A stretch of 64,000 nucleotides of DNA from Desulfospira joergensenii DSM 10085 (GTDB lineage: Bacteria; Desulfobacterota; Desulfobacteria; Desulfobacterales; Desulfobacteraceae), in contig NZ_ATUG01000001.1 in the NCBI RefSeq assembly GCF_000420085.1, forward strand, positions 2,069,223 through 2,133,222, in the 5' to 3' direction. The notes under the pieces are model-generated. The model saw only the letters and a list, made by a program, of their open reading frames with translations. It did no database searches and was not told the DNA's origin. Below, piece by piece: positions 44,711 to 62,734 of the stretch; the stretch's first letter is position 1, and each line of letters starts with the position of its first letter. Both the position numbers and the translations under genes were made by a program.

Positions 44711-44756
44711 ATTAGAGGTGGCCTAAGATCATCTTTCCATGGAGACAGGACGGGCA

Positions 44757-46340: not shown

Positions 46341-48350
46341 ATGGATACGCTTATATCCTTGCTTCCGTACATCGAATCTGACAGGGAGGGGTTTGTTCTG
46401 GATCTTCCTGTCCCGGAGAGGGGACCGGAATCAAGTCCGGGCGATTCATCTCCTTTTCAGATCGCAGACAGCGGGGGGAATTTTTCAATATTAGTAAAAG
46501 CCGGTATAAAAACAGGGCCTTCCCAAATCGTTACGCCCTTTTTCCTGCTGACCCAGAGAGACCATTATCCCATCCCGCCGGACGATTTACATCCCCTTAC
46601 CAATGCAGATATGGACCGGATCTGGATTGAGACCCTTCGATTTTATACCGGCGACGAAATCGCCTTTACTCTCCCGGGGCCCCCTGGCCGGGAAAAAGAG
46701 CCCCTTGCCTTCCATTCCCTGTTTTTCTGCAAAAAAAAGAAAAAATTTTTCCAGCCCCCCTGTCCCGAATGCGGAGAGCCCCTGGTCCTGTGCAAGGATG
46801 ACCAGGCCTTAAAGGGGGCCGGGCTCTTCCCCTATTATACCTCCCTGCACCGGTATCTTTACTGCCCACGGTGCCACGGAGCCAAGGCAGACCCCGCCTT
46901 TTACCAGTTTTCCCGGTCTTCGGAAGACCGGGTGTTTGTAAAAGACCGGTTTGATCTGATCCGGGATTTCAACCGGCTCAGAAGCAGGGCTTCCGGAAAT
47001 TTTCCCTGCCTTGAATGTCCTGGCCATGCCGAATGCTATATCACCGGCGAAAAAGCAGGATCCCGTATCGCCTTTTTTTCCTTTTACCCCTTTTACATGC
47101 TTTTTTTCCATGCCGCATCCATAAAAGCCGTTGATTTCCTCCCCCTCATCTCAGGGGCGTCCCCTGAACAGATTCCCTCCCTGTCCATGACCGTCCGGGG
47201 GGCTGATTTTACGGAATGCCTCGGCCGGAAAGGAACTCCCCGGTTCTTCTTTGAACAGGACGAAAGGTTTTTCCTGGAGGTCCTTTATTTAAAGCTCTCT
47301 TTTCTGGAAAGCTTTGTCCGATGTTTTAGCCGGAAAGGGGATATCCCATCCCTGCCCGGTTTTTCCGCCCACAGCATCTGGATCCGCCCCGGACCGGACA
47401 AGGGGATACTTCCGGTTTTCTGGGATTTCAGCCTGAATGTCATTGACCTTGTGTCCGATGTTCACCTGAACCGGGACCAACATGTCCTGACCCAGAACCG
47501 GGATCTTGTTTTTATGGTCCGCCTCTGGTTCCATACCTTTCTGGCAAACAGCAACCAGGGCCCCGGTGCGGTTTATGACCTGGCAGGGAGCCTGGCCGGA
47601 CACCAGACGGCCGGGCACTCCTTTGACTCCCAGGCCCTGGTCCGGGAATTTCCCGGTCTTGCCCCGGAAAATATCTTCTGGGAGCCCCGGCCCCAGGCCA
47701 TTCCCGGGGAGTGGGAGCCGTTCTGGTTCAAAACCCTGTTTACCGGCCTTTCCCTGCTGAAACAGGAACCTGGCCGGGATCTGAAATCCTGCCTGGCCGG
47801 ACTGCTCGCGGACATGAAATCCCTGAAGCAGGAGATTCAAACCGAATTGTTTTCAACCCGGCCCCCGGCCCCGGCGGCTCCCCTTTGGGAAGCCCGGCCC
47901 ATGGAGGAAAATAATGCGGCTGAACAAAAAAAAGCCCCGGAAGAGTCTTTGCCGGAAAAAGAGGCCATCGCCGGAATGCTGAAATCCTTACGGACCCGAT
48001 GGGCCCAGGCATCCCCTGCTCCTTTGGCGGACATGGAAGAGGATGTCCTTGAAACCATTGTCCTGTCTTCCCCGGATGAAGCCCCGGAGCCTCCGGAGGA
48101 AAACCGGCAGGAGCCTGCAGAGAAGCCGCCCGAGCCCGATGATTTTTTTGAAGAGACCGTGGTGCTGCAGGGGCCTGTTCCCCCGGATTCAGATGATGGT
48201 GCAGGTGATGACACCCATGATTTCGAAGAGATGGAGGAAACCGTGGTGCTGTCCCCGGGTCAATCACCGACACCGGCAGAACCGGACACCGGTTTCTTCG
48301 GCGAAGAGGACGATCTGGATAAGACAATCATAATCCCTCCGAAAAAATAA
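46341..48350 (+). CDS. Large T6SS-associated protein with zinc-ribbon cysteines and four repeated threonine motifs
   Basis: A 669-residue protein opening the T6SS locus. The middle has zinc-type cysteine pairs (CPECGEPL around residue 142, YCPRCHG around 175, CLECPGHAEC around 228). The acidic C-terminus (560-669) repeats a short motif four times: ETIVL (Thr572), ETVVL (Thr606), ETVVL (Thr634) and KTIII (Thr662). These look like phosphothreonine peptides that FHA domains bind. A T6SS phosphorylation or FHA scaffold is inferred; no kinase or FHA domain is in the window. I do not recognise the family. Confidence 0.75.
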   Translation: MDTLISLLPYIESDREGFVLDLPVPERGPESSPGDSSPFQIADSGGNFSILVKAGIKTGPSQIVTPFFLLTQRDHYPIPPDDLHPLTNADMDRIWIETLRFYTGDEIAFTLPGPPGREKEPLAFHSLFFCKKKKKFFQPPCPECGEPLVLCKDDQALKGAGLFPYYTSLHRYLYCPRCHGAKADPAFYQFSRSSEDRVFVKDRFDLIRDFNRLRSRASGNFPCLECPGHAECYITGEKAGSRIAFFSFYPFYMLFFHAASIKAVDFLPLISGASPEQIPSLSMTVRGADFTECLGRKGTPRFFFEQDERFFLEVLYLKLSFLESFVRCFSRKGDIPSLPGFSAHSIWIRPGPDKGILPVFWDFSLNVIDLVSDVHLNRDQHVLTQNRDLVFMVRLWFHTFLANSNQGPGAVYDLAGSLAGHQTAGHSFDSQALVREFPGLAPENIFWEPRPQAIPGEWEPFWFKTLFTGLSLLKQEPGRDLKSCLAGLLADMKSLKQEIQTELFSTRPPAPAAPLWEARPMEENNAAEQKKAPEESLPEKEAIAGMLKSLRTRWAQASPAPLADMEEDVLETIVLSSPDEAPEPPEENRQEPAEKPPEPDDFFEETVVLQGPVPPDSDDGAGDDTHDFEEMEETVVLSPGQSPTPAEPDTGFFGEEDDLDKTIIIPPKK

Positions 48351-48360
48351 GGGTGAATGG

Positions 48361-49098
48361 ATGACAAAAGACCTTCAAAACATGGAAGAAAGGATTCGTC
48401 AGATTTTCCGGAAACACGGGGACCGGAGCGAGTACCGGATGGACGATTTCCTGGGCAGCGAACTGGCCTCCCTGGAACCGGCCGATAAGATCAGGACCCT
48501 GGACAGGCTGATCGAGCGGTTTGAGGGTCCCGGACCGAATTCTGGAGAACATGCAGGGGGTTCCCCAGGAGTATCCATTGACGACCATGTCCTGGGAAGG
48601 GTGATCAAGCTGCTCCTGGGAAGGGACATCTCCCAGGTGGACCTAAGCTCGGAGGAGCTTCTGGAGAGTCTTGCCGATTCCATTAATACGGTTTTTGAAT
48701 CCCTGAACCAGGTGATATCCGTGATCAACACCACCCTGGTAGGAAAACAGGATTCAGACCAGACCATCCGCCAGGTCATCGGATTCCACCTGGAAGGCAG
48801 CGACCGGGCCAGACCCCTGGAAAGCTACATCGGCCAGATCGGCAAGGCCTTTTTCGAAGCCCAGGAAGCGGCCAAAAAAGCGGCCCATGCCAAGGTCATG
48901 CAGATTCTGGAGGAACTTTCCCCTGAAAAAATCGAAAAAGAGGCCGGGGTTTCCAAACTGACCCCCATGCGCAAATCCAGATACTATGAAGAGTATGAGC
49001 TCAAATTTGGAAAATTTGAAAAATGGTTTGAATCCGGCCGGTTCATGGAGTCTTTTTTACGGGAATTTGAAAAGAACTGCCAAAAAATATCAATTTAA
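48361..49098 (+). CDS. T6SS FHA-protein-type C-terminal domain without the FHA domain
   Basis: A 245-residue protein. Residues ~80-180 (RVIKLLLGRDISQVDLSSEE and VFESLNQVISVINTTLVG) and the helical end resemble the C-terminal domain of T6SS FHA proteins (TagH/Fha1), but the N-terminal FHA domain is absent. It follows the 46341 protein by 10 bases and precedes the lipoprotein gene tssJ. It may pair with that protein, which carries threonine motifs, to do jointly what a single FHA protein does elsewhere. Confidence 0.65.
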   Translation: MTKDLQNMEERIRQIFRKHGDRSEYRMDDFLGSELASLEPADKIRTLDRLIERFEGPGPNSGEHAGGSPGVSIDDHVLGRVIKLLLGRDISQVDLSSEELLESLADSINTVFESLNQVISVINTTLVGKQDSDQTIRQVIGFHLEGSDRARPLESYIGQIGKAFFEAQEAAKKAAHAKVMQILEELSPEKIEKEAGVSKLTPMRKSRYYEEYELKFGKFEKWFESGRFMESFLREFEKNCQKISI

Positions 49099-49112: not shown

Positions 49113-49652
49113 TTGAAAAAAAGTATTGTTCTGTTGGTTTCTGTGCTTTTCATGCTGGTCCTGTTTTCATGCGCAAAAAAAGTGTTGCCCCCGCCCCGGT
49201 GGACCTATGAAAAGGAGGCCATTAAAATTCAGGTCAAGGCCGACCCCATGCTGAACCTGGACAACGGAAAGGCCCATACCCTCTTTGTCTGTGTTTACCA
49301 GCTAAAGGACCCCAACGGCTTCAACCAGCTGTCCGGTGATCAGAGCGGCCTTTACAAACTCCTGGAATGCCGGCTGTTTGACCCGGGCGTTGCCACGTCC
49401 AAACGGCTCATCGTGAATCCCGGGGAGCAGACCACCCTGATGATGGACCGGGCGGAACATGCCAAGTATTTAGGCATCATTGCCGGATATTACGGTATTG
49501 TAAAGGAGCGCATCACCCGGCTCATTGAAATTCCCGTTGTCGTGGAAGAAAAGGGATTTATCGCCAGGGAAAAAACACAGAAACCCGGACTCCTGGACAT
49601 CACTCTTCTGCTGGGTCCGGAGCAGATTGAAAAAATAGAAGGGCAGGAATAA
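49113..49652 (+). CDS. tssJ: T6SS outer-membrane lipoprotein TssJ
   Basis: A 179-residue lipoprotein starting at TTG with a strong GGGAGGAGG ribosome site. The lipobox LFSC ends the signal near residue 20. The mature part has the TssJ beta-sandwich pattern (KIQVKADPMLN, LFVCVYQLKDP). It anchors the TssM-TssL membrane complex to the outer membrane. It overlaps tssK by one base, so the pair is translationally coupled. Confidence 0.92.
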   Translation: MKKSIVLLVSVLFMLVLFSCAKKVLPPPRWTYEKEAIKIQVKADPMLNLDNGKAHTLFVCVYQLKDPNGFNQLSGDQSGLYKLLECRLFDPGVATSKRLIVNPGEQTTLMMDRAEHAKYLGIIAGYYGIVKERITRLIEIPVVVEEKGFIAREKTQKPGLLDITLLLGPEQIEKIEGQE

Positions 49653-51037
49653 TGGTTAAACCTCTTTTCTGGCATCAGGGGCTCTTTCTTCAGCCCCATC
49701 ACTTCCAGCTCAGCGATTTATACAATAAATCCCTGGTGGAACCCTGGTACAGGTTCATGGCTCCCCATTTCTGGGGGGCGGGCAGCCTTGAAATCGACGA
49801 GGCCGTGCTGGCCAATTCCGTCTTTGACATCCGGGGCGGAGAATTTCTTTTTCCGGACAACTCCCATGTGATCCTGGGGGAGAACGGAGTGATCCAGGCC
49901 CGGTCCTTTGAATCGGCCTGGGAAGAGGGCGGAAAATCCTTTTCCGTCTTTCTGGGGCTGAAAAAATGGGATGCCGGCGGAGAAAACGTCAGTGTTCTGC
50001 CGGATTTCAAGGATCTGTCCCCGGCATCCAACCGGTTCGTCTCCCTGGGCGCCCCGGAAGAGATCGAAGATCTCCACGGAAACGGCCCAAAGGCGGAAGT
50101 CCGGCGGATGCTGTTTCTCGTCAGGATCTTCTGGGAAACGGAAATCGAGCACCAGGGAGAGTATCAGCTCATCCCCATTGCCAGACTCAAACGCCGCCTT
50201 GAGGAAACCGTGGTGGATCAAGACTTTATCCCCCCCTGCCTGACCATTGAAGGCTCCCCTGTCCTGGCCGGCATCATCAAGGAGATCAAGGACCAGCTCT
50301 TTTCCAAAACCCGCCAGCTTGAGGCTGTAAAACGGGCCAAGGGCGTTCATACGGCGGAGTTCGGCGCAAGGGACATGGTCTATATGATGGCCCTGCGCTC
50401 CCTGAACCGGTACCTGCCCCTGCTGGCCCATCTGACGGGAACGGTCCAGGGTCAACCCTGGGGGATTTACGGGGTCCTGCGGCAGATCATCGGAGAACTC
50501 TCCTCTTTTTCCGCCGAGGTATCGGCCGGGGGAGAACTGGAAGACGGCACAGCCCTGGTAAAGGAGTATGACCACAAAAACCTGTGGGAATGCTTTACCG
50601 GCGCCCAGAAGCTGATTACCCGGCTTTTGGACGAAATCACCTCAGGTCCCGAGTACATCATTCCCCTGCACTTTGACGGAACCTATTATGCCGCAGATCT
50701 TTCCCCCAATCTCTTTGAAGGAAGCAACCAATTTTACCTGGTTCTTGAAAGCCGGCAGAACCCGGAGGAGATCATCGAATCCATGAAGCATATTGCCAAA
50801 TTCAGTTCCAGGGAATCATTGCCCATTCTCATTGCCCAGTCTCTGCCGGGGATCAAGCTGACCCATCTTGAAACCGTTCCCCAGGAACTGCCCCGCAAGG
50901 CAGATGCCCTTTATTTTCAGGCAGACCATCACGGTAAGCAGTGGGAGTCGGTGACCGGGGGAAACAACATGGCCCTTTACTGGGATACGGCTCCCGAAGA
51001 CCTGGGGGTTGAGCTCATGATCGTAAGGAGGAATTAA
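49652..51037 (+). CDS. tssK: T6SS baseplate protein TssK
   Basis: A 461-residue TssK-family protein with the typical start LFWHQGLFLQPHHFQLSD and the C-terminal part ending in ALYWDTAPEDLGVELMIV. TssK forms trimers that link the baseplate wedges (TssF, TssG, TssE) to the TssJLM membrane complex. The length is normal and the sequence intact. Confidence 0.95.
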   Translation: MVKPLFWHQGLFLQPHHFQLSDLYNKSLVEPWYRFMAPHFWGAGSLEIDEAVLANSVFDIRGGEFLFPDNSHVILGENGVIQARSFESAWEEGGKSFSVFLGLKKWDAGGENVSVLPDFKDLSPASNRFVSLGAPEEIEDLHGNGPKAEVRRMLFLVRIFWETEIEHQGEYQLIPIARLKRRLEETVVDQDFIPPCLTIEGSPVLAGIIKEIKDQLFSKTRQLEAVKRAKGVHTAEFGARDMVYMMALRSLNRYLPLLAHLTGTVQGQPWGIYGVLRQIIGELSSFSAEVSAGGELEDGTALVKEYDHKNLWECFTGAQKLITRLLDEITSGPEYIIPLHFDGTYYAADLSPNLFEGSNQFYLVLESRQNPEEIIESMKHIAKFSSRESLPILIAQSLPGIKLTHLETVPQELPRKADALYFQADHHGKQWESVTGGNNMALYWDTAPEDLGVELMIVRRN

Positions 51038-51040
51038 GGA

Positions 51041-51715
51041 ATGAGACTGGCCGATTGTTTCACGGATATGATGGCGTACACCCTCCTGCTCAAGAAAAAA
51101 ACAGGGCCGGAAAGCATCCCCTTTGACCAGGCCCATGCCCACATGGACCGGCTGATCCGGGAGAGTGAGGTCCTGTCCGAGCAGGCCAGGGCCACCCGGG
51201 AGGATTATGATCTGGCCCGGTTTGCCGTATTTGCCTGGATTGATGAGGCCGTCATGGGCAGCGCCTGGGAGGGCCGGGGATACTGGCAGGGGGAACAGCT
51301 CCAGCGCAGATACTATCAGACCTCGGACGCCGGGGAACTCTTTTTCCAAAAACTCAACACCATCGGCCCCCACCAGAACCCGGTCAGGGAAGTCTATTAT
51401 CTCTGCCTTGCCCTGGGCTTTACCGGCCAGTATCACAACCAGGGGGACGATATGCTCATTGACCAGCTCAAGACATCCAATTTAAAGCTGCTCACCGGCA
51501 GTTCCATGGACCTGCCGGCCATTGACCGGATGCAGCTCTTTCCCGACGCCTATAGAAAGGACCCGCATTCAGTCGATGCCGGGGGAAAGGGGGGATTTTC
51601 CCTGCTCACGGCCGCAGCCTTCCTGGTGCCGGTGGGCCTGTACGGGATCTTGTTCTTTATTTACAGATTTGTCTTGAGCAATGTGGGGGAAACCTTAATC
51701 AGCAGGATACCTTAA
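51041..51715 (+). CDS. tssL: T6SS inner-membrane protein TssL (DotU type)
   Basis: A 224-residue protein. It has a cytoplasmic N-terminal domain (about 1-180) of the DotU fold and a single C-terminal membrane helix (SLLTAAAFLVPVGLYGILFF). No peptidoglycan-binding domain is fused. It pairs with TssM in the inner membrane and docks the baseplate through TssK. It begins three bases after tssK. Confidence 0.93.
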   Translation: MRLADCFTDMMAYTLLLKKKTGPESIPFDQAHAHMDRLIRESEVLSEQARATREDYDLARFAVFAWIDEAVMGSAWEGRGYWQGEQLQRRYYQTSDAGELFFQKLNTIGPHQNPVREVYYLCLALGFTGQYHNQGDDMLIDQLKTSNLKLLTGSSMDLPAIDRMQLFPDAYRKDPHSVDAGGKGGFSLLTAAAFLVPVGLYGILFFIYRFVLSNVGETLISRIP

Positions 51716-54700
51716 ATGAAAAATCGGCTTGCTTTTTTCTTTAAAATTTTTTTGGTTCTCGTGCTGCTGGTATTTATCGGCATTGCCGTATTTGCCGGTG
51801 TTGTCTGGGCCAGATGGCCCCTGTGGGTCTGCTTTTTCATCGTTGCGGGGATCGTCGGTGTTTTCCTCGGCCTCCTGCTGGTCCAGAAACTGCTCTCCAG
51901 GAAGCGGGAGCAGAAATTTGTCAGCCAGATCATTGAGCAGGACAATGCGGCCCTGAAATCCCGTGACAAAAAAAGCCGGGAAGTCTCCAGGGAGATGCAG
52001 GCCAAGTGGAAAGAGGCCGTGGAATCCCTGAAAAAATCCCATTTAAAAAAACAGGGCAACCCGCTCTATGTGCTGCCCTGGTACATGATCATCGGCGAGA
52101 GCGGTACCGGAAAAACCACGGCCATCAAGAGTGCCGACCTCTCCTCCTCCTTTGCCGAAGTCAGCAGCGTGTCCGGCATCTCAGGCACACGGAACTGCGA
52201 CTGGTGGTTTTTCGAGCAGGCCATCCTCATTGACACGGCCGGACGGTACGCCGTCCGGGTGGATGAGGAACGGGACAAGGACGAGTGGCAGAAGTTCTTA
52301 AGTATTCTGGCAAAGTACCGGAAAAAAGAACCCTTAAACGGGCTGATCGTCACGGTGGCTGCGGATTCTTTGAACAATTCGACACCCGACAGCCTGGAGC
52401 GGTACGGACGGGATATCCGCAAAAGGGTGGATGAACTCATGCGGGTCCTGGACGCCAAGTTCCCGATTTACATCATGGTGACCAAATGTGACCTCATCCA
52501 GGGCATGACCCAGTTTTGCGACGGCTTTGACGACGAGGCCCTGGGCCAGGCCATGGGAATGGTCAACCACAAGCTTGAAAAAGACGCTGCAGGGCTTGTG
52601 TCCGGCTGTTTCAAGACCATGGGAGAGAGGATCCGGGATCTCCGCCTGCTCATCCTCCAGAAGCAGAGACCGGAAAACGTGGACCCGGGTCTCATCCTTT
52701 TTCCCAGTGAGCTGGACAAGATCAAGCCCGGACTCCAGGCCTTTATCAAAGGGTTGTTCCAGGAAAATCCCTACCAGGAAACCCCGTTTTTCCGGGGGGT
52801 GTTTTTCAGCTCCGGCCGCCAGGAGGGGACGCCCTTTTCCCATTTTCTCAAGGACATGGGCCTGATCGGGGAGCAGGAAGTCCTGCCCGGAACCAGCCGG
52901 GGGCTTTTTCTCCATGATTTTTTCTCCCGGCTGCTGCCCTCGGACCGGGGCCTCTTTACCAAGACCCAGAGGGGGGCAGCCTGGGCCAGGCTGACCCGGA
53001 ATATCGGGTTTGCCGCTTGGACAACCCTCATCCTTGCCGTTTGCGGAATTTTAAGTTTTTCCTTTGTCAAGAATCTCCACACCATCAAGACGGCCACCAC
53101 CCAATTTGCCGGTCCCCAGATCCTGAAAGGAGAGCTGATCTCGGATGTCTCCACCCTGGAGCAGTTCCGGGCCACCATCCAAAAAATCGAAGAGAGCAAC
53201 AACAATTGGTGGATTCCCCGGCTGGGACTCCACGAGAGCATTGAAGTGGAAGCGGCATTGAAGAAAAAATACTGCGCCCTTCTGGAAAAGCGGTTTCTTT
53301 CCCCCTTTGATGAAAAAATGGCCGACAACATGACCGGCTTTTCCCTTTCCACGCCCGTGGAGATTTCCATCAGCCATATCGAACATCTGGTGAGAAGGAT
53401 CAACATCATCAAGGCCAAGCTCACGAACCTGCCGCCTGAAGAGCTTACGGCCATGGCACAGCCAAAGTTCAACACCGTGGACATCGGAGCTCAGAAAGAT
53501 ATCCTGGAAGATGTCCAGATGAAAATGAATGACCTCTACCTTTTTTACCTGCTCTGGCAGGAAGATACCGGGGCCATGAACCTGAAGATGAACGAGCTGC
53601 AGAAATGGCTGGCCCGGATCCTGACCCTGGAGGGGACGGACCTGAAATGGCTGGTGATCCGGGCAAACCAGGATCCAAAGATCAGTCCCTATACCCTGGC
53701 CGACTTCTGGGGAAAATCAGTCCGGGCCGCCGAGGCAAAAGCGGTTGCACCCGGTTTCACCCGCAAGGGCAAGGACTCCATTGACCGGTTTATCCTGGAG
53801 ATCGAGTCGGCCCTGACCGACTCACTGATCCCGGCCGGGCGCAAGCGGGAATTCCATAAATGGTACAGAACCGCCTACATCAATGCCTGGATGGACTTTC
53901 TTGCCGAATTCGGTACCGGGATGACATACCTGACCACCCGGGAGCAGTGGCAGGCCCTTTCCACCAGCGTGGCCCATAAAAAAGGTCCCTATTTTTCCCT
54001 GTTGGACACCATCCCCAAGGAACTGGCTCCCTTTTCTGAAAAAGGGGATCAGCCCGACTGGGTGAGCCTGGTAAGGGACATCAACCAGCTCCACGGCCAG
54101 GCCGCGACCCTGAGGGCCCAGAAATCCGGATCCACCGGGGTCCTGGGAACAGCCGTTTCCAAGGTGAAATCCAAACTGGCCCCGGGCCTGGCAAGCACCC
54201 GGCTGGATGCCCAGGCCATGCTCAAGGCCGGGAAGAGTTTCATGATCTTTCAGGACTCCCTGGCTGCACTCGGGCCGGCAATCTCCTCCCAGAGAGCCGC
54301 CTTTGACCTTGCCACCCAGATCTACACCCAGGATCCGGCCACCAGCGATGCCCCGTTTTTTGTGGCCCGAAGGGAAATCAAAAAGCTTTCCCGGCTCATC
54401 GTCTATCCCGGGAAAGAGCCTGCTCTTGTCTGGGGAATTCTCCGGGGCCCCCTGGTCTTCATCCATGAGTTTGCCCTGAAAGAGGCTGCCTGCCAGATTC
54501 AGAAAAAATGGGAAAACGAGGTGCTCCTGGAGATGAGGGACGTGTCCGACGACCAGAACCTGAACACCCTGCTTATGGGACCGGAAGGGTTTGTAACCCG
54601 GTTTGTCAAGGGGCCGTGCCAGCCCTTTATCAAAAGGGGAATCAAAAAAGGCTTCTACGCCGCCAAGGTGGACGGAAAAGGACTGCCCCTTTCCCCCTAC

Positions 54701-55189
54701 TTCTTTAAGTTTCTGACCCGGGGGGTTGCGGCGTCTAAACCGGCCAAGTCAAACTACAGCGTCAAAATCGGCGGAAAGCCCACCAGCGCCAATGACGAGG
54801 CCCAGGTCCAGCCCCACGCCACCCTGCTGGAACTGGTCTGCGCCGACAAGACAACCACCCTGGAAAACCTGAATTTCCCGGTTCAAAAGGTTTTTTCCTG
54901 GTCTCCCCAGTCCGAATGCGAGGTGATTTTCACCATCAAGATCGGCAGCCTGGACCTGATCAAAAAATACCCGGGCCGGCTCTCCTTTCCCAAGTTTCTA
55001 AAGGATTTTTCCAACGGGGAACACCGGTTTTATCCCAAGGATTTTCCAGACCATGAAGACAGCATGATCCGGATGGGGGTCAAATATATCAAGGCAAAAT
55101 ACAGACTCAGGGGGCATGAGCCTGTTGCCAAACTCCTGAGTGCCGGGCCGGGAAAAACGCCCATGGAAATCGTTACATGCTGGGAATAA
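51716..55189 (+). CDS. tssM: T6SS inner-membrane protein TssM (IcmF type)
   Basis: A 1157-residue protein: two N-terminal helices (about 8-30 and 36-58), then a cytoplasmic nucleotide-binding domain with intact Walker A GESGTGKT (127-134). A third helix (about residues 429-447) precedes the large periplasmic part that reaches TssJ. The IcmF-related and DUF1215-type C-terminal regions are complete. The ATG starts directly after tssL, and the end overlaps tagF by 13 bases. Confidence 0.95.
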   Translation: MKNRLAFFFKIFLVLVLLVFIGIAVFAGVVWARWPLWVCFFIVAGIVGVFLGLLLVQKLLSRKREQKFVSQIIEQDNAALKSRDKKSREVSREMQAKWKEAVESLKKSHLKKQGNPLYVLPWYMIIGESGTGKTTAIKSADLSSSFAEVSSVSGISGTRNCDWWFFEQAILIDTAGRYAVRVDEERDKDEWQKFLSILAKYRKKEPLNGLIVTVAADSLNNSTPDSLERYGRDIRKRVDELMRVLDAKFPIYIMVTKCDLIQGMTQFCDGFDDEALGQAMGMVNHKLEKDAAGLVSGCFKTMGERIRDLRLLILQKQRPENVDPGLILFPSELDKIKPGLQAFIKGLFQENPYQETPFFRGVFFSSGRQEGTPFSHFLKDMGLIGEQEVLPGTSRGLFLHDFFSRLLPSDRGLFTKTQRGAAWARLTRNIGFAAWTTLILAVCGILSFSFVKNLHTIKTATTQFAGPQILKGELISDVSTLEQFRATIQKIEESNNNWWIPRLGLHESIEVEAALKKKYCALLEKRFLSPFDEKMADNMTGFSLSTPVEISISHIEHLVRRINIIKAKLTNLPPEELTAMAQPKFNTVDIGAQKDILEDVQMKMNDLYLFYLLWQEDTGAMNLKMNELQKWLARILTLEGTDLKWLVIRANQDPKISPYTLADFWGKSVRAAEAKAVAPGFTRKGKDSIDRFILEIESALTDSLIPAGRKREFHKWYRTAYINAWMDFLAEFGTGMTYLTTREQWQALSTSVAHKKGPYFSLLDTIPKELAPFSEKGDQPDWVSLVRDINQLHGQAATLRAQKSGSTGVLGTAVSKVKSKLAPGLASTRLDAQAMLKAGKSFMIFQDSLAALGPAISSQRAAFDLATQIYTQDPATSDAPFFVARREIKKLSRLIVYPGKEPALVWGILRGPLVFIHEFALKEAACQIQKKWENEVLLEMRDVSDDQNLNTLLMGPEGFVTRFVKGPCQPFIKRGIKKGFYAAKVDGKGLPLSPYFFKFLTRGVAASKPAKSNYSVKIGGKPTSANDEAQVQPHATLLELVCADKTTTLENLNFPVQKVFSWSPQSECEVIFTIKIGSLDLIKKYPGRLSFPKFLKDFSNGEHRFYPKDFPDHEDSMIRMGVKYIKAKYRLRGHEPVAKLLSAGPGKTPMEIVTCWE

Positions 55190-55929
55190 AAAAACAAACC
55201 GGAGGTTTTCAGGTCTCCGCCTCGGGCAAGCATCCGGCATTCAACGATTATTTCAGTGTGAACGTTGAATCTCCCCTGGCCATTGCCCTGGCCTCCTGGG
55301 TGGAAAACGGGATGGCCGCCAAAGGAAAAACCGACCGGACAAGGATACCCCGGTCCTTCCGGTTCTGGGTGCGGGGCATCAGAAAGGGGGAGCTCTCCCT
55401 GGGAATCCTCCGGGAGAGCAGCGACCGCATGGGACGGATCTATCCCCTGATGATCATGGGAAGCCTGGTCATGAACGGGAGGGACCGGGAATGGCAGTCC
55501 ATATTTGACGGATTTGAGATGGTTTTCAGGAACTTTGAGAACATGACCACCACTGTCTATGACCGGTTTAACGACTTTGAAGACGGGCTTTTGGAAATGA
55601 CCGGACGCGGCTCCCCCCCCTTTGAGGAAAACGGGAAAGAGACAGACCTTTCCAGGGCCATGGGAGCCTGGTTCCATCGGGACAGGGACCAGGAGATGAT
55701 GACCCTGCCCGTGGACCAGCTCAAAAAGATTTTTTCCGGCCTTCCCCCCAAAAAGGAAAGCCGGGGATTTTTCCGGCCCGGGCCGGACCCGCCCGGGGCC
55801 GCTTTCCTGGGAGGTCTGCCCGGAGAGCCGGTGATAACGATCTATTCCCGGGCCCTGAGAACCCGGGACTTTTTAACATTGTTCAATCTGACCGGTAGGG
55901 ATGAAACGGAAAACCGACAACACCCATAA
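55177..55929 (+). CDS. tagF: T6SS regulator TagF
   Basis: A 250-residue TagF-type protein with the family start GKHPAFNDYFSVN and the segment YPLMIMGSLVMN. TagF proteins hold assembly of some T6SS back at the post-translational stage until relieved by threonine phosphorylation signalling. Its presence fits the threonine-motif protein at 46341. The start lies within the tssM end, and the stop is 12 bases before tssA. Confidence 0.85.
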   Translation: MLGIKKQTGGFQVSASGKHPAFNDYFSVNVESPLAIALASWVENGMAAKGKTDRTRIPRSFRFWVRGIRKGELSLGILRESSDRMGRIYPLMIMGSLVMNGRDREWQSIFDGFEMVFRNFENMTTTVYDRFNDFEDGLLEMTGRGSPPFEENGKETDLSRAMGAWFHRDRDQEMMTLPVDQLKKIFSGLPPKKESRGFFRPGPDPPGAAFLGGLPGEPVITIYSRALRTRDFLTLFNLTGRDETENRQHP

Positions 55930-55941
55930 AGGAGAAAACGG

Positions 55942-57306
55942 ATGGATATGGATCCCATTCTTGAGCCTTTGGCCGGGGACAACCCCTCGGGTGAAAACCT
56001 GAGGTATACATCGGTGTATGATGAAATCCAGGAGGCCAGAAGGGCCGACGATCTCCTGGACCAGGGGGAGTGGCAGCACGAGGTCAAGACATCGGACTGG
56101 AATGCGGTATTGACCCTTTCCATTGATGCCCTGACCACCCGGACCAAGGACCTGCAGATCGCAGCCTGGCTTTTTGAGGCCCTGACCCATACCAGCGGCT
56201 TCCAGGGAGTTGCCCAGGGACTTGAGATCCTGATCCGGCTTTTGGAGCGGTTCTGGGACAGCCTCTACCCGGAAATCGAAGATGATGACCTGGATTATAG
56301 GGTGGGTCCCCTGGAGTTCATCAATGACAAGCTATGGTTTCCCATCAAGGAAATTCCCATGACAGATCCCGGTGTCACCCCGGGTTTCTCCTGGATAAAA
56401 TGGCAGGAATCCAGGGACGTGGGATATGAAAAAGATACGATGAACCAGTACGGCGACACCATTGAGGACAAGAAAAAGGCCAGGGACGAGAAGATCGCGG
56501 AAGGCAAGCTGACCGCTGAGGATTTTGACGGGGCTGCGGCCTCATGCTCCAGGGCCTATTATGAGGAGCTCTTTGAGGTTGTGAATCGCTGCGGGGAGCT
56601 GTTTAAGGATTTTGACGCGGCGGTTGACGAAAGATTCGGCCGGGAAGCACCCAGGCTGGCGGAACTGAAATCCTCTTTGGAAGACTGCCTCACCCTTGCC
56701 ACCCGGCTGGTCAAGGAAAAAAGGCTGGCCGAACCCGATGCAGAACCCGAAGAGGTGGAGGTAGACCTGGAGATTCAGGAGGAGGCTCTTCCAGAAGAAG
56801 GTCCGGCAGATGCACCTCTTCCCGGCGGGCCGGTCCAGGCCCCACCGGTCAAGCCTCCCGGGGGCAATGTGGGAACCTATCATGTCAACCGCATCCTGGG
56901 CAGCGCCGGCATTGAAGAGGCGGTCTGGCAGGATGCATTGAAAAAACTGGGAACCCAAGGGGTGAAACCGGCCCTGGAACAGCTTTTAGGGGCATCCTGC
57001 AGTGCCCAGTCCGTAAGGGAAAAGACAAATTTCAAACTGCTCATGGCCAGACTCTGCCTCAAAGCCCAGCGGCCCGACCTGGCCAGGCCCATTGTGGAGG
57101 AACTCAACACCCTGATCGAAGAGCTTGCCCTGGAACGGTGGGAATCCCCCATATGGATCGCCGAGGCCCTGGGCACCCTTTACCAGTGCCTCACGGCAGA
57201 GGGCAGCTCCGACGACGATCAATACCGGGCCCAGGATATATTGACACGGATGTGCACCCTGGACGTGACCAAGGCCATGGAGTTTTCAAGCCGCGGGACA
57301 GAATAA
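55942..57306 (+). CDS. tssA: T6SS assembly protein TssA (ImpA type)
   Basis: A 454-residue protein with an ImpA-type N-terminal domain (NPSGENLRYTSVYDEIQEAR) and a helical C-terminal half after a proline-rich linker (about 275-310). TssA guides priming and growth of the TssBC tail from the baseplate. It overlaps nothing and is followed by 39 bases before tssB. Confidence 0.9.
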   Translation: MDMDPILEPLAGDNPSGENLRYTSVYDEIQEARRADDLLDQGEWQHEVKTSDWNAVLTLSIDALTTRTKDLQIAAWLFEALTHTSGFQGVAQGLEILIRLLERFWDSLYPEIEDDDLDYRVGPLEFINDKLWFPIKEIPMTDPGVTPGFSWIKWQESRDVGYEKDTMNQYGDTIEDKKKARDEKIAEGKLTAEDFDGAAASCSRAYYEELFEVVNRCGELFKDFDAAVDERFGREAPRLAELKSSLEDCLTLATRLVKEKRLAEPDAEPEEVEVDLEIQEEALPEEGPADAPLPGGPVQAPPVKPPGGNVGTYHVNRILGSAGIEEAVWQDALKKLGTQGVKPALEQLLGASCSAQSVREKTNFKLLMARLCLKAQRPDLARPIVEELNTLIEELALERWESPIWIAEALGTLYQCLTAEGSSDDDQYRAQDILTRMCTLDVTKAMEFSSRGTE

Positions 57307-57345
57307 AAAGATAGAATCCATAATGATTAATCAAAGGAGGGTAAG

Positions 57346-57852
57346 ATGGCCAAGGAAAGTTTACAGCATACCCTGGACAGGGTGAGATCCCCCAGGGTCC
57401 AGATCACCTATGATGTGGAAGTGGGTGATGCAATTGAAATGAAGGAAATTCCTTTTACCGTGGGGGTTCTGGCAGACCTGTCCGGAAAGCCGGAAAAGCC
57501 CCTTCCCAAGCTCAAGGAAAGGAAATTTGTGGAGATCGACCGGGACAATTTCAACAATGTCCTGGAGGGGATGGAGCCGAGGCTGGCCTTCCGGGCGGAC
57601 AACAAGCTCACGGAAGACGATACGGCCATGGCCGTGGAACTCAAGTTCAAATCCCTGGAAGACTTTCACCCGGAAAAGGTGGCCCGCCAGATCGATCCCA
57701 TCCGGAAACTGGTGGAGGCCAGGGAAAAGCTCAAGGGCCTGCTCAACAAACTGGACGGCAATGACAAGCTGGACGAGCTGCTCCAGGACGTGATCTCAAG
57801 TACGGATTCCCTGGAAAAACTGGGCAAGGAAGCCGGTGTAAAAAAGGATTAA
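57346..57852 (+). CDS. tssB: T6SS sheath small subunit TssB
   Basis: A 168-residue TssB/VipA protein with the hallmark RVQITYDVEVGDAIEMKEIP and PFTVGVLADLSG, and the segment FLNRIDR replaced here by the related VEIDRDNFNNVL. It forms the contractile sheath with TssC. It has a strong AGGAGG ribosome site and lies 24 bases before tssC. Confidence 0.95.
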   Translation: MAKESLQHTLDRVRSPRVQITYDVEVGDAIEMKEIPFTVGVLADLSGKPEKPLPKLKERKFVEIDRDNFNNVLEGMEPRLAFRADNKLTEDDTAMAVELKFKSLEDFHPEKVARQIDPIRKLVEAREKLKGLLNKLDGNDKLDELLQDVISSTDSLEKLGKEAGVKKD

Positions 57853-57876
57853 CCATCAACGAGGAGGAAAGACCCA

Positions 57877-59373
57877 ATGGCTGACAAGGAACAGCAGGCC
57901 CAGCCCGATGGGGCACAGGCAGAGGAAACCACCCAGGAGCCGGGGCTCCTGGATCAGATCATACAGGACGGACGGCTGGCCCGGGACGAGAGTCAGAAAC
58001 CCTGGGCCAAGGATCTTTTGGGCGAATTCGTATCCCAGATCATGGAGGGAGAAATCACGGTTTCCAAGGATACCGAAGCCATGATCAACGCCCGGATCTC
58101 CGCCATCGACAAACTCATCTCAGACCAGCTCAACGAAGTCATGCACAAGGAGGAGTTCCAGAGACTGGAGGCCTCCTGGCGAGGCCTGGCCTACCTGGTG
58201 GACAAGACCGAAACCGGGGAGAGAATGAAACTGCGGGTCATGAACGTATCCAAGAAAGACCTGCTCAAGGACATGGAAAAGGCCGCTGAATTTGACCAGT
58301 CCGCCCTCTTTAAAAAGGTGTATGAAGAGGAGTTCGGCATGTTCGGAGGGGCATCCTACGGCGCCCTGATCGGGGATTATGAGTTTACCAGCCACCCCCA
58401 GGACATGGCCCTTTTAAGCAAGATCTCCGAGGTGGCTGCGGCGGCCCATGCCCCGTTTCTGTCGGCGGCCGGTCCTGAACTCTTTAACATGGACAGCTTT
58501 ACCGAACTGGGCGAGCCCCGGGATATGGCCAAGATCTTTTCCAGTGTGGAATACGCCAAATGGAAGTCCTTCCGGGAGTCTGAAGATTCCCGTTATGTGG
58601 CCCTGGCCATGCCCCACATCCTCATGCGCCTTCCCTACGGCAAGGCCAATGTGCCCGTGGAGGCCTTTGACTTTGAGGAAAAGGTGGACGGCACCTCTCA
58701 CAACCAATACCTCTGGGGAAATGCCGCCTATGCCCTGGGCACCCGGCTCACCGAAGCCTTTGCCAAGCACTCCTGGTGCGCGGCCATCCGGGGGGTTGAG
58801 GGCGGGGGACTTGTGGAAGGACTCCCGGTCCACACCTTTAAGACCGATGAGGGGGATGTGGCCCTGAAATGCCCCACGGAAATCGCCATCACCGACCGGA
58901 GGGAAAAAGAACTGGCCGATCTCGGGTTCATTCCCCTGGTCCATTGCAAGGGAACCGACTATGCCGCCTTTTTCAGCACCCAGAGTGCCAACAAACCCAA
59001 GGTCTACGATTCAGATGCGGCCAATGCCAATGCCCGGCTCTCCTCCCAGCTCCAGTACATCATGGCCACCTCCAGGTTTGCCCACTACCTCAAATCCATG
59101 ATGCGGGATAAGATCGGCAGTTTCATGACCCGGCAGAACGCAGAGGATTATCTCAACCGGTGGATCAGCAACTACGTGCTCCTGGACGACAACGCCACCC
59201 AGGAGATGAAGGCCAAGTATCCTTTGAGGGAGGCCCGGATCGATGTCAGCGAGATCCCGGGAAAACCCGGGGCTTACCGGGCGGTCAGCTTTTTAAAACC
59301 CCATTTCCAGCTGGACGAGCTTTCCGTCTCCCTGCGGCTTGTGGCTGAACTGCCGCCGCCGGCAAACGGGTAG
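57877..59373 (+). CDS. tssC: T6SS sheath large subunit TssC
   Basis: A 498-residue TssC/VipB protein with the family blocks LEASWRGLAYLVDKTETGER, FGMFGGASYGALIGDYEFT and FARSY-type region FASVEYAKW. The C-terminal end PHFQLDELSVSLRLVAELP is the usual one. With TssB it builds the sheath that contracts to drive the tube. A single complete tssC is present here. It is followed 32 bases later by tssE. Confidence 0.95.
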   Translation: MADKEQQAQPDGAQAEETTQEPGLLDQIIQDGRLARDESQKPWAKDLLGEFVSQIMEGEITVSKDTEAMINARISAIDKLISDQLNEVMHKEEFQRLEASWRGLAYLVDKTETGERMKLRVMNVSKKDLLKDMEKAAEFDQSALFKKVYEEEFGMFGGASYGALIGDYEFTSHPQDMALLSKISEVAAAAHAPFLSAAGPELFNMDSFTELGEPRDMAKIFSSVEYAKWKSFRESEDSRYVALAMPHILMRLPYGKANVPVEAFDFEEKVDGTSHNQYLWGNAAYALGTRLTEAFAKHSWCAAIRGVEGGGLVEGLPVHTFKTDEGDVALKCPTEIAITDRREKELADLGFIPLVHCKGTDYAAFFSTQSANKPKVYDSDAANANARLSSQLQYIMATSRFAHYLKSMMRDKIGSFMTRQNAEDYLNRWISNYVLLDDNATQEMKAKYPLREARIDVSEIPGKPGAYRAVSFLKPHFQLDELSVSLRLVAELPPPANG

Positions 59374-59405
59374 CAGACCCTTGACAGAAAAGGGACGGGA
59401 ACACA

Positions 59406-59879
59406 ATGGATGATTCAATAAATCTGAACGCCTCCATACTGGACCGGCTCCTGGATGATGACCCCAAAACCATCCAGGAGCCTTCCCTGTACCGGGTTCT
59501 GTCGGAAAAACAGATCCTGGACAACGTGATCCGGGATATTGAAAACCTCTTGAACACCCGGTGCAGCCCCATTGATATCCCGGCCCCTTTCAAAAATCTG
59601 AAGCGGTCCCTGATCCGGTACGGGATCAGTGATTTTTCCGTTGAAAATCCCGGGACCAGCACGGTGAGACAGAAATTGTGCAAGGAAATCGAAACCGCCA
59701 TCTCCGTGTTTGAACCCCGGCTGAAAAAACCGGTGGTGAGGATTGAAAGGGAGAACCATGACAAGAGAAAGCTCTTTTTCAGGATATCCGGGATCCTTGT
59801 GATGGAACCCCTTTCCGAACCGGTCTCCTTTGATACTTTTTTTGACCTGAACCGGGGCCGGTATGTAATTTCAAAATAA
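59406..59879 (+). CDS. tssE: T6SS baseplate protein TssE
   Basis: A 157-residue TssE protein, a relative of phage gp25. The N-terminal DSINLNASILDRLLDD is typical, and the gp25-like core contains NTRCSPIDIPAPFKNLKRSL. The expected pattern GI-D-FS-ENP (YGISDFSVENPGT) is visible. It joins TssF and TssG in each baseplate wedge. Confidence 0.92.
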   Translation: MDDSINLNASILDRLLDDDPKTIQEPSLYRVLSEKQILDNVIRDIENLLNTRCSPIDIPAPFKNLKRSLIRYGISDFSVENPGTSTVRQKLCKEIETAISVFEPRLKKPVVRIERENHDKRKLFFRISGILVMEPLSEPVSFDTFFDLNRGRYVISK

Positions 59880-59903
59880 AACAACTTGAATGCGCTCTTT
59901 CCT

Positions 59904-61706
59904 ATGGATGATAAATTACTCAACTACTATGAACGGGAACTGACCTTTGTCAGGGAGATGGGGGCAGAATTTGCGGCAAAATACCCCAAAATCGCCGGAC
60001 GGCTCCAGCTGGAACCGGATAAATGTGAAGATCCCCATACGGAAAGACTCATTGAAGCCTTTGCCTATATCAGCGGGAGAATCCATAAAAAGATCGACGA
60101 TGATTTCCCCCAGATCACCGAATCTTTGATGGGGATCACCTATCCCCACTACACCAACCCCATCCCCTCCATGACCCTGGTTCGGTTCGACCCCAACCCG
60201 AAAAGCATCACGGAAAAAGGATATGAGATTCAAAAGGGCGCTGCTCTCTTCTCCAAACCGGTCAAGGGGGTGCCCTGCACCTTTACCCTCTGCGCACCGG
60301 TTTCCCTGTGGCCGGTCAGGGTCAAGGCGGTTTCCCTTGAAGAGCCGGGGCCCGGGGCAAAGGGAGCGGTCCAGGCCATTCATATCCAATTGGAAACCGT
60401 CAATGATATTGATTTCAGCGATTTGGAATGTGAATCTCTGCGGTTTTTCCTCAACGGCCAGCACCAGCATGTCTTTCCCCTGTACGAGAAGATCTTCAAC
60501 AATGTCTCGGCCCTGGAATTCCGGTTTGCCAATTCCAGCGGACGGACCGAGACCATCGCCTTAGAACCGGAATCGATCCGTCCGGTGGGGTTTGATCCCA
60601 ATGAGAAGATGCTGCCCTATTCAAAGCGGTCCTTCCCGGGATATCTGCTCTTGTTTGAGTATTTTACCTTCCCGGAAAAATTTTTATTCTTTGATCTCAC
60701 CGGTTTCAAGGCCCTTAAGAAGAGATCTGCAGGCACCTCTCTGTCCGTTATCCTCTATCTTTCCCAAAGCATCAAACGGGATATCGTGGTCAACAAAGAT
60801 ACCTTCCAGCTCCATTCCGCCCCGGCCGTGAACCTGTTCAAAAAAATAGCCGAGCCCATGAGGGTGGAGCATCGGAAAACCGAGTACCGGGTGGTTCCGG
60901 ATCTGAGAAGGGCCGGGGCAACCGAGGTCTATACCGTGGACCGGGTCAAGCCGGCCTCTGTCTCCGCAGGCCAGGCCAAGGAGTACAGGCCCTTTTATTC
61001 CATCCGCCACCATCTCTCCCATGAAGAGGCCGGAAACAGCCATGTTTTCTGGCATATCCAGCGGAGACCGTCGGGACGGCAGGGGGACAAGGGAACCGAG
61101 GTCTATCTTTCCTTTTCCGACCTGAACATGACCCCGGCAGATCCCGGGGCGGATATTTTGACCATTCACCAGACCTGTACAAACCGGGACCTGCCCTCAA
61201 GGCTTCCCTTCGGGGACGAGCGGGGGGACTTTACCATGGAGCTTGCCGCACCCGTGGACAGAATCGTCAGCATGATCAAACCCACTCCCACCCGGCGCCC
61301 CTTTCTGGGCGGGGCACTTCAGTGGAGGATGATCTCCCATCTCTCCCTCAACTATATCTCCATGGTGGAGGGCGGAGAGGACGCCTTAAAAGAGATCCTG
61401 AAACTCTATGATTTTGAAAATTCCACCTCCACCAAACAGCAGATCAGCGGCATTGTCTCGGTCCAGTCCCGTCATGTGACCAAGCGGATCCGGACCTCTT
61501 TTGCCCGGGGCGTGGAGATCACCCTCACCCTGGATGAGGACAAGTTCGTGGGATCCGGACTTTTTCTGTTCGCCTCCATCCTGGAAAGGTTTCTGGCCCA
61601 GTACGTATCGGTCAACTCCTTTTCCCAGCTGGTATTGAAAACCCTTCAGAAAAAAGAGGAAATGAAACGGTGGCCCCCCAGAAGCGGCAATCAGATACTG
61701 GTTTAG
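59904..61706 (+). CDS. tssF: T6SS baseplate protein TssF
   Basis: About 600 residues from the ATG at 59904, which gives the family start MDDKLLNYYERELTFVREMG; a TTG six codons earlier is possible. No strong ribosome site precedes either. The C-terminal region with LGGALQWRMISHLSLNYISM and the RTSFARGVEITLTLDEDKFVGSG stretch are typical. It overlaps tssG by 37 bases. Confidence 0.93.
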   Translation: MDDKLLNYYERELTFVREMGAEFAAKYPKIAGRLQLEPDKCEDPHTERLIEAFAYISGRIHKKIDDDFPQITESLMGITYPHYTNPIPSMTLVRFDPNPKSITEKGYEIQKGAALFSKPVKGVPCTFTLCAPVSLWPVRVKAVSLEEPGPGAKGAVQAIHIQLETVNDIDFSDLECESLRFFLNGQHQHVFPLYEKIFNNVSALEFRFANSSGRTETIALEPESIRPVGFDPNEKMLPYSKRSFPGYLLLFEYFTFPEKFLFFDLTGFKALKKRSAGTSLSVILYLSQSIKRDIVVNKDTFQLHSAPAVNLFKKIAEPMRVEHRKTEYRVVPDLRRAGATEVYTVDRVKPASVSAGQAKEYRPFYSIRHHLSHEEAGNSHVFWHIQRRPSGRQGDKGTEVYLSFSDLNMTPADPGADILTIHQTCTNRDLPSRLPFGDERGDFTMELAAPVDRIVSMIKPTPTRRPFLGGALQWRMISHLSLNYISMVEGGEDALKEILKLYDFENSTSTKQQISGIVSVQSRHVTKRIRTSFARGVEITLTLDEDKFVGSGLFLFASILERFLAQYVSVNSFSQLVLKTLQKKEEMKRWPPRSGNQILV

Positions 61707-62734
61707 AAGACCAACTCTACGACTCTTTCTATGAGTTCTCCTTTTTCAGGGCGGTTGACCTGCTGGAGCAGTTTGCCCGGGACAAGAAAAAAATAGGGGA
61801 TACCCTGGAGCCGGGAAAAGAGGTGGTGCGCTTCTCGGTCAAACCCGGGTTTTCATTTCCCCCAAGCGATATCTCAGGCCTTGGACAGGACCCGGAAAAC
61901 GGACCCTCCCGGATGGAGGTGGCCTTCATGGGGCTCATCGGGCCCTCGGGCCTGCTTCCCAACTGGTACAATGAACTGGCCCTGGAACGGCGGAAAAATA
62001 AAGATCATGCTTTTATCGATTTTCTGAACATCTTCCACCACCGGCTGATCTCCTTATTTTATCTGGCCTGGAAAAAACAGCGGTTCCCGGAGAACTATGC
62101 GCCCGGGGCCGGGGACCGCCTGTCCCGGTATATCCTGAGCCTGGCCGGACTCGGGACCTCCGGCATGGTCGGGCTTCTGGGACTGCCCCGGGAATCCCTG
62201 ACCTTTTACGCCGGACTTCTCTCCCTGCCCGTGGCCTCGGCCGCCGGGATTGAGGCGGCCATTGAATATTTTTCCGGGGCCCCCACCCGGGTGGACCAGT
62301 TTGTGGAAAGAGATGTTCCCCTGGAACCCCAGGACTGTACAAAACTGGGTTCGGCCAATGCCTCCCTGGGTATTGATGCGGTCTGCGGAACCCGTGTCCG
62401 GGAGTGCCAGACCAAATTCAGGGTTAACCTGGGCCCAATAGACTACACTGCCTATACACGGTTCATCCCCATGGGAGACCTTCTTCTGCCGGTTTTCTCC
62501 CTGATCCGGTACATGGTGGGGATCGAATTTGAATTTGAAATCCGGGTCTTCCTCAAAAAAGAGGAGGTCCCCTCCTGCGTCCTGGGGGAAAAGGGCCCGG
62601 GCCGGGTCTTTCTGGGCTGGACCACCTGGGCGGCCTCGCCCGGACATGAGTTTACGGAAAACCCGTATATCACCTTTGAGGAAAATGATCTAAAGCGGAT
62701 GAAGGTGGGTAGGCTGAAGACCGAAGGGGTTTAG
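61670..62734 (+). CDS. tssG: T6SS baseplate protein TssG
   Basis: A 354-residue TssG protein beginning at GTG inside the tssF end. The family opening YDSFYEFSFFRAVDLLEQ, the VAFMGLIGPSGLLPNWYNEL block and the C-terminal TWAASPGHEFT are present. It forms the TssF2-TssG wedge. Its stop codon lies in the loop of an 18-base-pair hairpin between tssG and tssH. Confidence 0.93.
   Translation: MAPQKRQSDTGLEDQLYDSFYEFSFFRAVDLLEQFARDKKKIGDTLEPGKEVVRFSVKPGFSFPPSDISGLGQDPENGPSRMEVAFMGLIGPSGLLPNWYNELALERRKNKDHAFIDFLNIFHHRLISLFYLAWKKQRFPENYAPGAGDRLSRYILSLAGLGTSGMVGLLGLPRESLTFYAGLLSLPVASAAGIEAAIEYFSGAPTRVDQFVERDVPLEPQDCTKLGSANASLGIDAVCGTRVRECQTKFRVNLGPIDYTAYTRFIPMGDLLLPVFSLIRYMVGIEFEFEIRVFLKKEEVPSCVLGEKGPGRVFLGWTTWAASPGHEFTENPYITFEENDLKRMKVGRLKTEGV

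Follow-up and report, generated by a model that had tools for sequence, protein, structure and literature searches.

A probable threonine-phosphorylation switch in a type VI secretion system with Fha/TagH divided among three gene products

The type VI secretion system (T6SS) is a harpoon-like bacterial secretion machine. FHA domains read phosphothreonine, and in TagH/Fha (TIGR03354) an N-terminal FHA domain and a C-terminal T6SS_FHA_C domain are carried by one protein. The T6SS operon considered here opens with a 669-residue protein ending in repeated threonine motifs, followed by a protein that retains the C-terminal domain of TagH alone, which raises the question of how phosphothreonine control could be laid out where these halves are parted. 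A sequence-only reading had proposed an arrangement different from PpkA-PppA-Fha1, in which a multivalent phospho-tail recruits an FHA protein encoded elsewhere. The window, meaning the whole stretch of DNA analyzed, comprises 64,000 nt (C1:2069223-2133222, C1 being the contig that carries it) of a 6.1 Mb genome. The operon contains the following genes, numbered by window position.

46341..48350, + strand: scaffold with zinc ribbons, a kinase-like region and a predicted phospho-tail, 669 aa, first T6SS operon gene (homologues occupy the equivalent operon position in the genomes inspected)
48361..49098, + strand: stand-alone TagH/Fha C-terminal domain (PF20232), 245 aa, without an FHA domain (Pfam)
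49113..49652, + strand: TssJ lipoprotein (PF12790)
49652..51037, + strand: TssK baseplate-membrane connector (PF05936)
51041..51715, + strand: TssL, short form (PF09850 at residues 3-209)
51716..55189, + strand: TssM (PF14331)
55177..55929, + strand: TagF repressor (PF09867), whose presence had been noted from the sequence
55942..62734, + strand: TssA, TssB, TssC, TssE, TssF and TssG, in this order (Pfam matches)

TssH lies just past TssG, outside this stretch, and a genome search returned a single TssK copy, that of the scaffold operon. The homologous loci long enough to read share the order from the scaffold through FHA_C, TssJ, TssK, TssL, TssM and TagF to TssA, with TagF undetected on one contig. 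Directly upstream of the operon lies a PAS-sigma54-activator regulator (44739-46151). Because of this gene, a sigma-54 promoter was sought before 46341; no match was found there, and matches across the window were no commoner than chance.

The description of the second gene as the C-terminal domain of T6SS FHA proteins and nothing more was borne out by family profile searches, in which PF20232 was the sole match (26.4 bits against a cut-off of 23.7, residues 168-238) and no FHA domain was found. Likewise, the PF20232 protein stands alone in all genomes with both a scaffold and a PF20232 match. Scores against TIGR03354 were 14.9 and 61 bits, below the cut-off of 120, and the system was not filed as a TagH member because the fusion that defines the family was tested for and is absent. 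Compared with TagH/Fha (TIGR03354, PF20232), the FHA_C domain is the same and a related FHA domain exists (see below), the difference being that the two halves here reside on genes tens of kilobases apart.

The scaffold carries its threonine motifs exactly as had been described, at Thr572, Thr606, Thr634 and Thr662, and they fall within a C-terminal region that a nine-row AlphaFold model predicts to be disordered (pLDDT <50 over residues 557-669).

47949..48008, + strand: conserved helix xAIxxILxxIxxKW before the tail, aa 537-556, kept in mini-proteins (alignment; AlphaFold2 model)
48009..48347, + strand: acidic tail predicted to be disordered, aa 557-669, carrying the four phosphothreonine-type motifs (pLDDT; motif statistics)
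48051..48065, + strand: motif 1, ETIVL, Thr572 (sequence)
48153..48167, + strand: motif 2, ETVVL, Thr606 (sequence)
48237..48251, + strand: motif 3, ETVVL, Thr634 (sequence)
48321..48335, + strand: motif 4, KTIII, Thr662, 8 residues from the C-terminus (sequence)

All four motifs fit E/K-T-[IV]-[IV]-[LI], and composition shuffles of this tail gave an expectation of 0.06 such sites. Across 35 homologous tails, 149 T-[VIAML]-[IVLM]-[ILVMF] sites were counted against 4.2 expected when the same letters were shuffled, a 35-fold excess. Random low complexity was rejected as an account of the tail on this count. At least two motifs occur in 33 of the 35 tails and at least three in 31; most homologues have 3-10 sites, while L033 has one and L047 none, and the final motif lies close to the C-terminus in most of them. 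The motif is kept in nearly all full-length homologues from three phyla (Desulfobacterota, Nitrospirota and Planctomycetota). The even spacing remarked on earlier holds for this protein (34, 28 and 28 residues between threonines); between species, the motif and its repetition are conserved, the spacing is not, and tail length varies. Outside the motifs the tails are barely alignable. In the divergent homologue L050, near-identical tandem repeats around EDFEATVVLGRGAAAAARG indicate a recent expansion of the motif array.

The motif profile places Glu or Asp at -6 to -4, Leu or Ile at -3 and Glu (60%) or Lys at -1, followed by Thr, Val (81%), Ile/Val, Leu/Ile and then often Ser-Pro; the family consensus reads [DE][DE]xLxETV[IV][LI]. 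When a second pattern left the key residue free, 122 of 124 sites had Thr and none had Ser, which is slightly commoner than Thr in the tails overall. Strict Thr, preceding acidic residues and a hydrophobic residue at +3 could constitute an FHA-ligand-like pattern, and the pT+3 position carries weight in FHA ligands (PMC5549992). The Agrobacterium TssL peptide DLPpTVVEI binds Fha with millimolar affinity (PMC3953482) and was the sole measured T6SS Fha ligand found in the literature searched; it shares pT-V-V with the scaffold motifs and differs at pT+3, where it has Glu and the scaffold Leu or Ile.

Which part of the scaffold matters most is suggested by a natural deletion. Homologues of the scaffold were found in Desulfobacterota, in Nitrospirota (Thermodesulfovibrio and Nitrospirae MAGs) and in one planctomycete, in addition to the 22 found among 395 genomes from the phylum to which the window belongs; a search of plasmids for the zinc-ribbon scaffold found none. 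In one genus (G020, G058, G153, G228 and G250), the folded domain is absent and a mini-protein of ~120-130 residues sits immediately upstream of FHA_C, consisting of the helix AIxxILxxIxxKW and three motifs, the last of which is EFLEETVILKP or nearly so. Since helix and motifs are kept and the rest is dispensed with, the motif tail would be the conserved core and working part of the scaffold, and such variants point to what is essential. In the relatives L017 to L021, only the C-lobe-like half of the scaffold is missing. The notion that the f18/g21 genomes without a scaffold domain lack the system altogether was discarded, as a mini-tail is present there.

Genes for FHA, Ser/Thr kinase and PP2C proteins were sought throughout the genome and were found clustered ~40 kb further on, past the window's end, next to Hcp and VgrG. 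This second T6SS-associated cluster (C1:2164112-2178860), separated from the operon by unrelated genes, encodes a DUF4280 protein, a weakly metalloprotease-like protein, VgrG, Hcp, a two-FHA protein, a TPR lipoprotein, a deacetylase-like lipoprotein, a Cache-like membrane protein, a Ser/Thr kinase and a PP2C phosphatase.

C1:2172014-2173018, minus strand: two-FHA protein, 334 residues (two FHA domains)
C1:2176424-2178133, start uncertain: Hanks-type Ser/Thr kinase with a Cache-like membrane half (PF00069 at C1:2177246-2178028)
C1:2178048-2178860: PP2C phosphatase (PF13672/NF033484)

The suggestion that the FHA protein is encoded elsewhere needs qualifying, since its gene frequently lies within the scaffold's T6SS locus, at the opposite end. 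The genes for the two-FHA orthologue, PP2C and kinase are grouped, and in several genomes they lie at the border of that locus, 20-45 kb from the scaffold. Of 24 genomes inspected, 20 encode a kinase no more than 8 kb from the FHA gene; in G380, none was seen in the portion of sequence read on either side of it. Within the first FHA domain, G33 R34, S50 R51 H53, N71, T73 and N76 G77 are invariant in ten orthologues, and the GR, SRxHA and NGT residues are kept across orthologues with few exceptions. In the second, Arg and Ser are missing from most of the ten aligned orthologues, so that, judged by these residues, only the first domain appears equipped to bind pThr. Fused TagH has an FHA domain to which this first domain is related (HHalign P 1.6e-7).

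Several minor features of this neighborhood were recorded. A Cache-like membrane protein just before the kinase (L024 5644-6507) has a Cys-rich C-terminal stretch (CPLCG...CC) and appears to be related to the sensor half of the kinase while having no kinase part itself. Two-FHA proteins (here L024 2015-3019, minus strand) often end in S-[LI]-[FYL]-K-[KD]-[LI]-[FW]-[KR] after a variable linker, a possible docking peptide. The VgrG-linked, weakly metalloprotease-like protein (L023 13551-15326, minus strand) has an HExxH-type motif and is a candidate T6SS effector.

Further FHA and kinase genes occur elsewhere in this genome, as several do in most of these genomes, and the link between tail and reader was examined by co-occurrence in 395 genomes of the window's phylum, 44 of which are TssK-positive. 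The scaffold domain was detected in 22 genomes, all TssK-positive, and 28 T6SS genomes were counted as tail-positive when mini-tails and one tail at a contig edge (G368) were included. A strong profile match to the two-FHA protein was present in 26 of these 28 and in none of the 16 tail-negative T6SS genomes (Fisher P 3.7e-10, a value that overstates independence because the genomes are related). This distribution supports the proposed layout of phosphothreonine control, and neither of the two findings named beforehand as speaking against it, a genome devoid of FHA or kinase genes and motifs that homologues do not share, was observed. The two tail-positive exceptions are G106, an assembly of 710 contigs, and G285, where the scaffold is only a contig-end fragment. 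Complete fused TagH (439-461 residues) was found only in G154, G159 and G181, all three without tail and two-FHA protein; fused TagH and the tail/double-FHA pair are mutually exclusive. That any FHA protein of the genome is equally likely to be the reader was rejected, as it is the two-FHA orthologue that co-varies with the tail.

Among characterized pathways, that of Agrobacterium tumefaciens consists of PpkA, TagF-PppA, Fha and pThr14-TssL; phosphorylated TssL brings Fha to TssM-TssL, and Fha is also bound by TagF (PMC3953482, PMC5995506). The present system has in common with it a kinase, a PP2C, an FHA reader and TagF, and in both the membrane-complex operon encodes a protein with a pT-V-V site, whose phosphorylation is presumed here. 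Agrobacterium has one site on TssL, whereas the putative acceptor here is a scaffold protein of its own, in most cases with 3-10 sites; in addition, TssL is short, FHA and FHA_C are separate proteins, and the reader has two FHA domains. The short TssL, in which DotU already opens at residue 3, has no N-terminal extension like the one bearing Thr14 in Agrobacterium, which would be in keeping with an acceptor role moved to the scaffold tail. In the H1-T6SS of Pseudomonas aeruginosa, the FHA protein Fha1 is itself phosphorylated at Thr362 (as cited in PMC5995506). Kinase/phosphatase/FHA logic and TagF are likewise shared with PpkA-PppA-Fha1 as described there, the difference being that Fha1 is its own substrate and acceptor and reader would here be separate proteins. 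Of the PpkA-PppA-Fha-TagF pathway, the genome has a kinase with PP2C beside it, an FHA protein with intact pThr-binding residues and TagF; the known substrate sites are missing (the TssL Thr14 region is absent, and there is no fused TagH with an Fha1 Thr362 region), for which reason we class the system as a variant of this pathway.

The folded part of the scaffold has no Pfam or NCBIfam match above cut-off for the whole protein, and nothing significant was retrieved for the domain in Pfam, NCBIfam or PDB sequence searches. An AlphaFold model from nine rows was poor (pLDDT 55.6), whereas AlphaFold2 with a 29-row domain alignment reached pLDDT 80.5 and pTM 0.81.

46728..47036, + strand: Cys-rich zinc-ribbon region, aa 130-232 (29-homologue alignment; AlphaFold2 pLDDT ~90 over most of it)
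47253..47600, + strand: region like a protein kinase C-lobe, aa 305-420, without catalytic residues (Foldseek; HHalign)

Eight cysteines (C130, C141xxC144, C175xxC178, C223xxC226 and C232) are invariant in 29 of 29 aligned homologues, enough for two predicted zinc sites. Foldseek matches of the model in the PDB were mostly protein kinases (JAK2, TYK2, JAK3, BRAF, FAK and EphB3), with TM scores by target up to 0.48 and a best E of 0.17, none significant alone. The divergent member L050 has HLNLRPENVWV and DLYGVGMLLMRAL at the places of kinase HRDLKPENILV and DxYSLGVLLYELL. HHalign of L049 with L050 against kinases gave collinear alignments (P 0.00045, 0.014 and 0.22), and L050 from HRD to alpha-F gave P 0.0056; the whole scaffold family against kinases was not significant (P 0.19). 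The scaffold lacks the HRD catalytic Asp and the DFG Gly, with WDFS or WNFx at the DFG-like place, and a catalytic Lys is not evident in sequences of the main family. This resemblance is suggestive; we regard kinase ancestry as likely, and the folded part is probably a degenerate kinase fold carrying zinc ribbons.

Taken together, we consider it probable that this locus encodes a T6SS threonine-phosphorylation switch with Fha/TagH split into three gene products: the scaffold, composed of the zinc-ribbon kinase-like domain, the conserved helix and the disordered acidic repeat tail; the TagH C-terminal domain as a stand-alone protein from the adjoining gene; and the two-FHA protein, encoded with the Hanks kinase and PP2C at the far side of the T6SS locus. 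The proposal draws on genomic evidence, namely the anatomy of the genes, motif conservation, the exclusive choice of Thr, linkage, co-occurrence, mutual exclusion and the natural deletion. Weighing against it are the ~40 kb and unrelated genes between operon and cluster, the additional FHA and kinase genes of the genome, the Glu at pT+3 and millimolar affinity of the Agrobacterium peptide, the homologues L047 and L033 with no motif or one, and the result for G380. The kinase, triggered via its Cache-like sensor half, would phosphorylate several tail threonines, and the first FHA domain would bind pThr-V-[IV]-[LI]. Since each reader has one competent FHA domain, a four-site tail could hold several readers if all sites are used, and multiple sites per tail may bring several FHA proteins together at the TssJKLM complex. 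The FHA_C protein, expressed beside the scaffold and presumably doing what TagH elsewhere does with its C-terminal half, and the baseplate would then proceed to assembly, while PP2C would reset the switch and TagF oppose it. Phosphorylation, FHA binding and activation as the direction of effect are what we infer within this scheme.

Other readings of the same tail deserve weighing. The TV[IV][LI] motifs might act unphosphorylated, as SLiMs docking by beta-strand addition onto TssK, the sheath or FHA_C, with the kinase acting elsewhere. The motif core is indeed short, hydrophobic and beta-prone and follows acidic residues, and the substrates in Agrobacterium and Pseudomonas are TssL and Fha1 (PMC5995506). 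We nevertheless find such docking improbable given the near-absolute use of Thr and avoidance of Ser, the acidic residues at -4 to -6 combined with hydrophobic ones at +1 to +3, and the tight co-occurrence with the two-FHA protein, kinase and PP2C. Phospho-control might also be real with a tail that recruits another FHA protein, or that inhibits as a phospho-sink or PP2C decoy. The several FHA proteins and kinases of most of these genomes leave room for this, but the two-FHA orthologue is the only one shown to track the tail, and the operon already has a repressor in TagF; we judge it quite unlikely. That the tail is a mere flexible charged linker, its repeats being low-complexity drift, fits its disorder and its variable length and spacing, yet is hardly tenable against the 35-fold motif excess, the C-terminal placement of the last motif and the genus that lost the folded domain and kept helix and motifs.

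Returning to the split Fha/TagH switch, a more detailed version can be offered tentatively, and we regard it as possible though doubtful. A dead kinase with zinc ribbons would have turned T6SS scaffold, with a live relative phosphorylating its tail at several sites; two-FHA proteins would bind multivalently, clustering the membrane complex in a switch-like manner, and the number of sites (1 to 10) would tune the threshold between species. Multivalent clustering is a conjecture by analogy with Mycobacterium tuberculosis Rv1747, which has two FHA domains and a disordered linker and whose condensation is promoted by PknF and reversed by PstP (PMC9312465). Alike are the two FHA domains, the phosphorylation in a disordered region (presumed here) and control by kinase and PP2C; in Rv1747, both parts belong to one ABC transporter, whereas here they are two proteins and the clustering is conjectural.

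Pathways of this kind are known, and what appears new is the acceptor scaffold together with a separate FHA_C protein and a separate two-FHA reader. In a literature search that excluded most subscription journals, no paper describing this arrangement, a split TagH or a T6SS pseudokinase scaffold was found. The T6SS phospho-acceptor differs between models, being Fha1 in Pseudomonas and TssL in Agrobacterium, and a lineage-wide system appears here to name its own acceptor and reader, with a repeat-site tail that tracks one FHA protein over ~14 families of one phylum and has homologues in two more phyla. The target of this kinase-FHA switch is directly testable with short peptides, and the tail, if phosphorylated as proposed, would be a simple bacterial example of phosphorylation at multiple sites.

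Several genomes also encode, near the FHA, PP2C and kinase genes, a further TssC-like sheath protein that is divergent and ~515-554 residues long (E 1e-10 to 1e-53) (L070 13558-15219 and L067 8590-10179; also L075, L077, L081, L087, L089 and L106).
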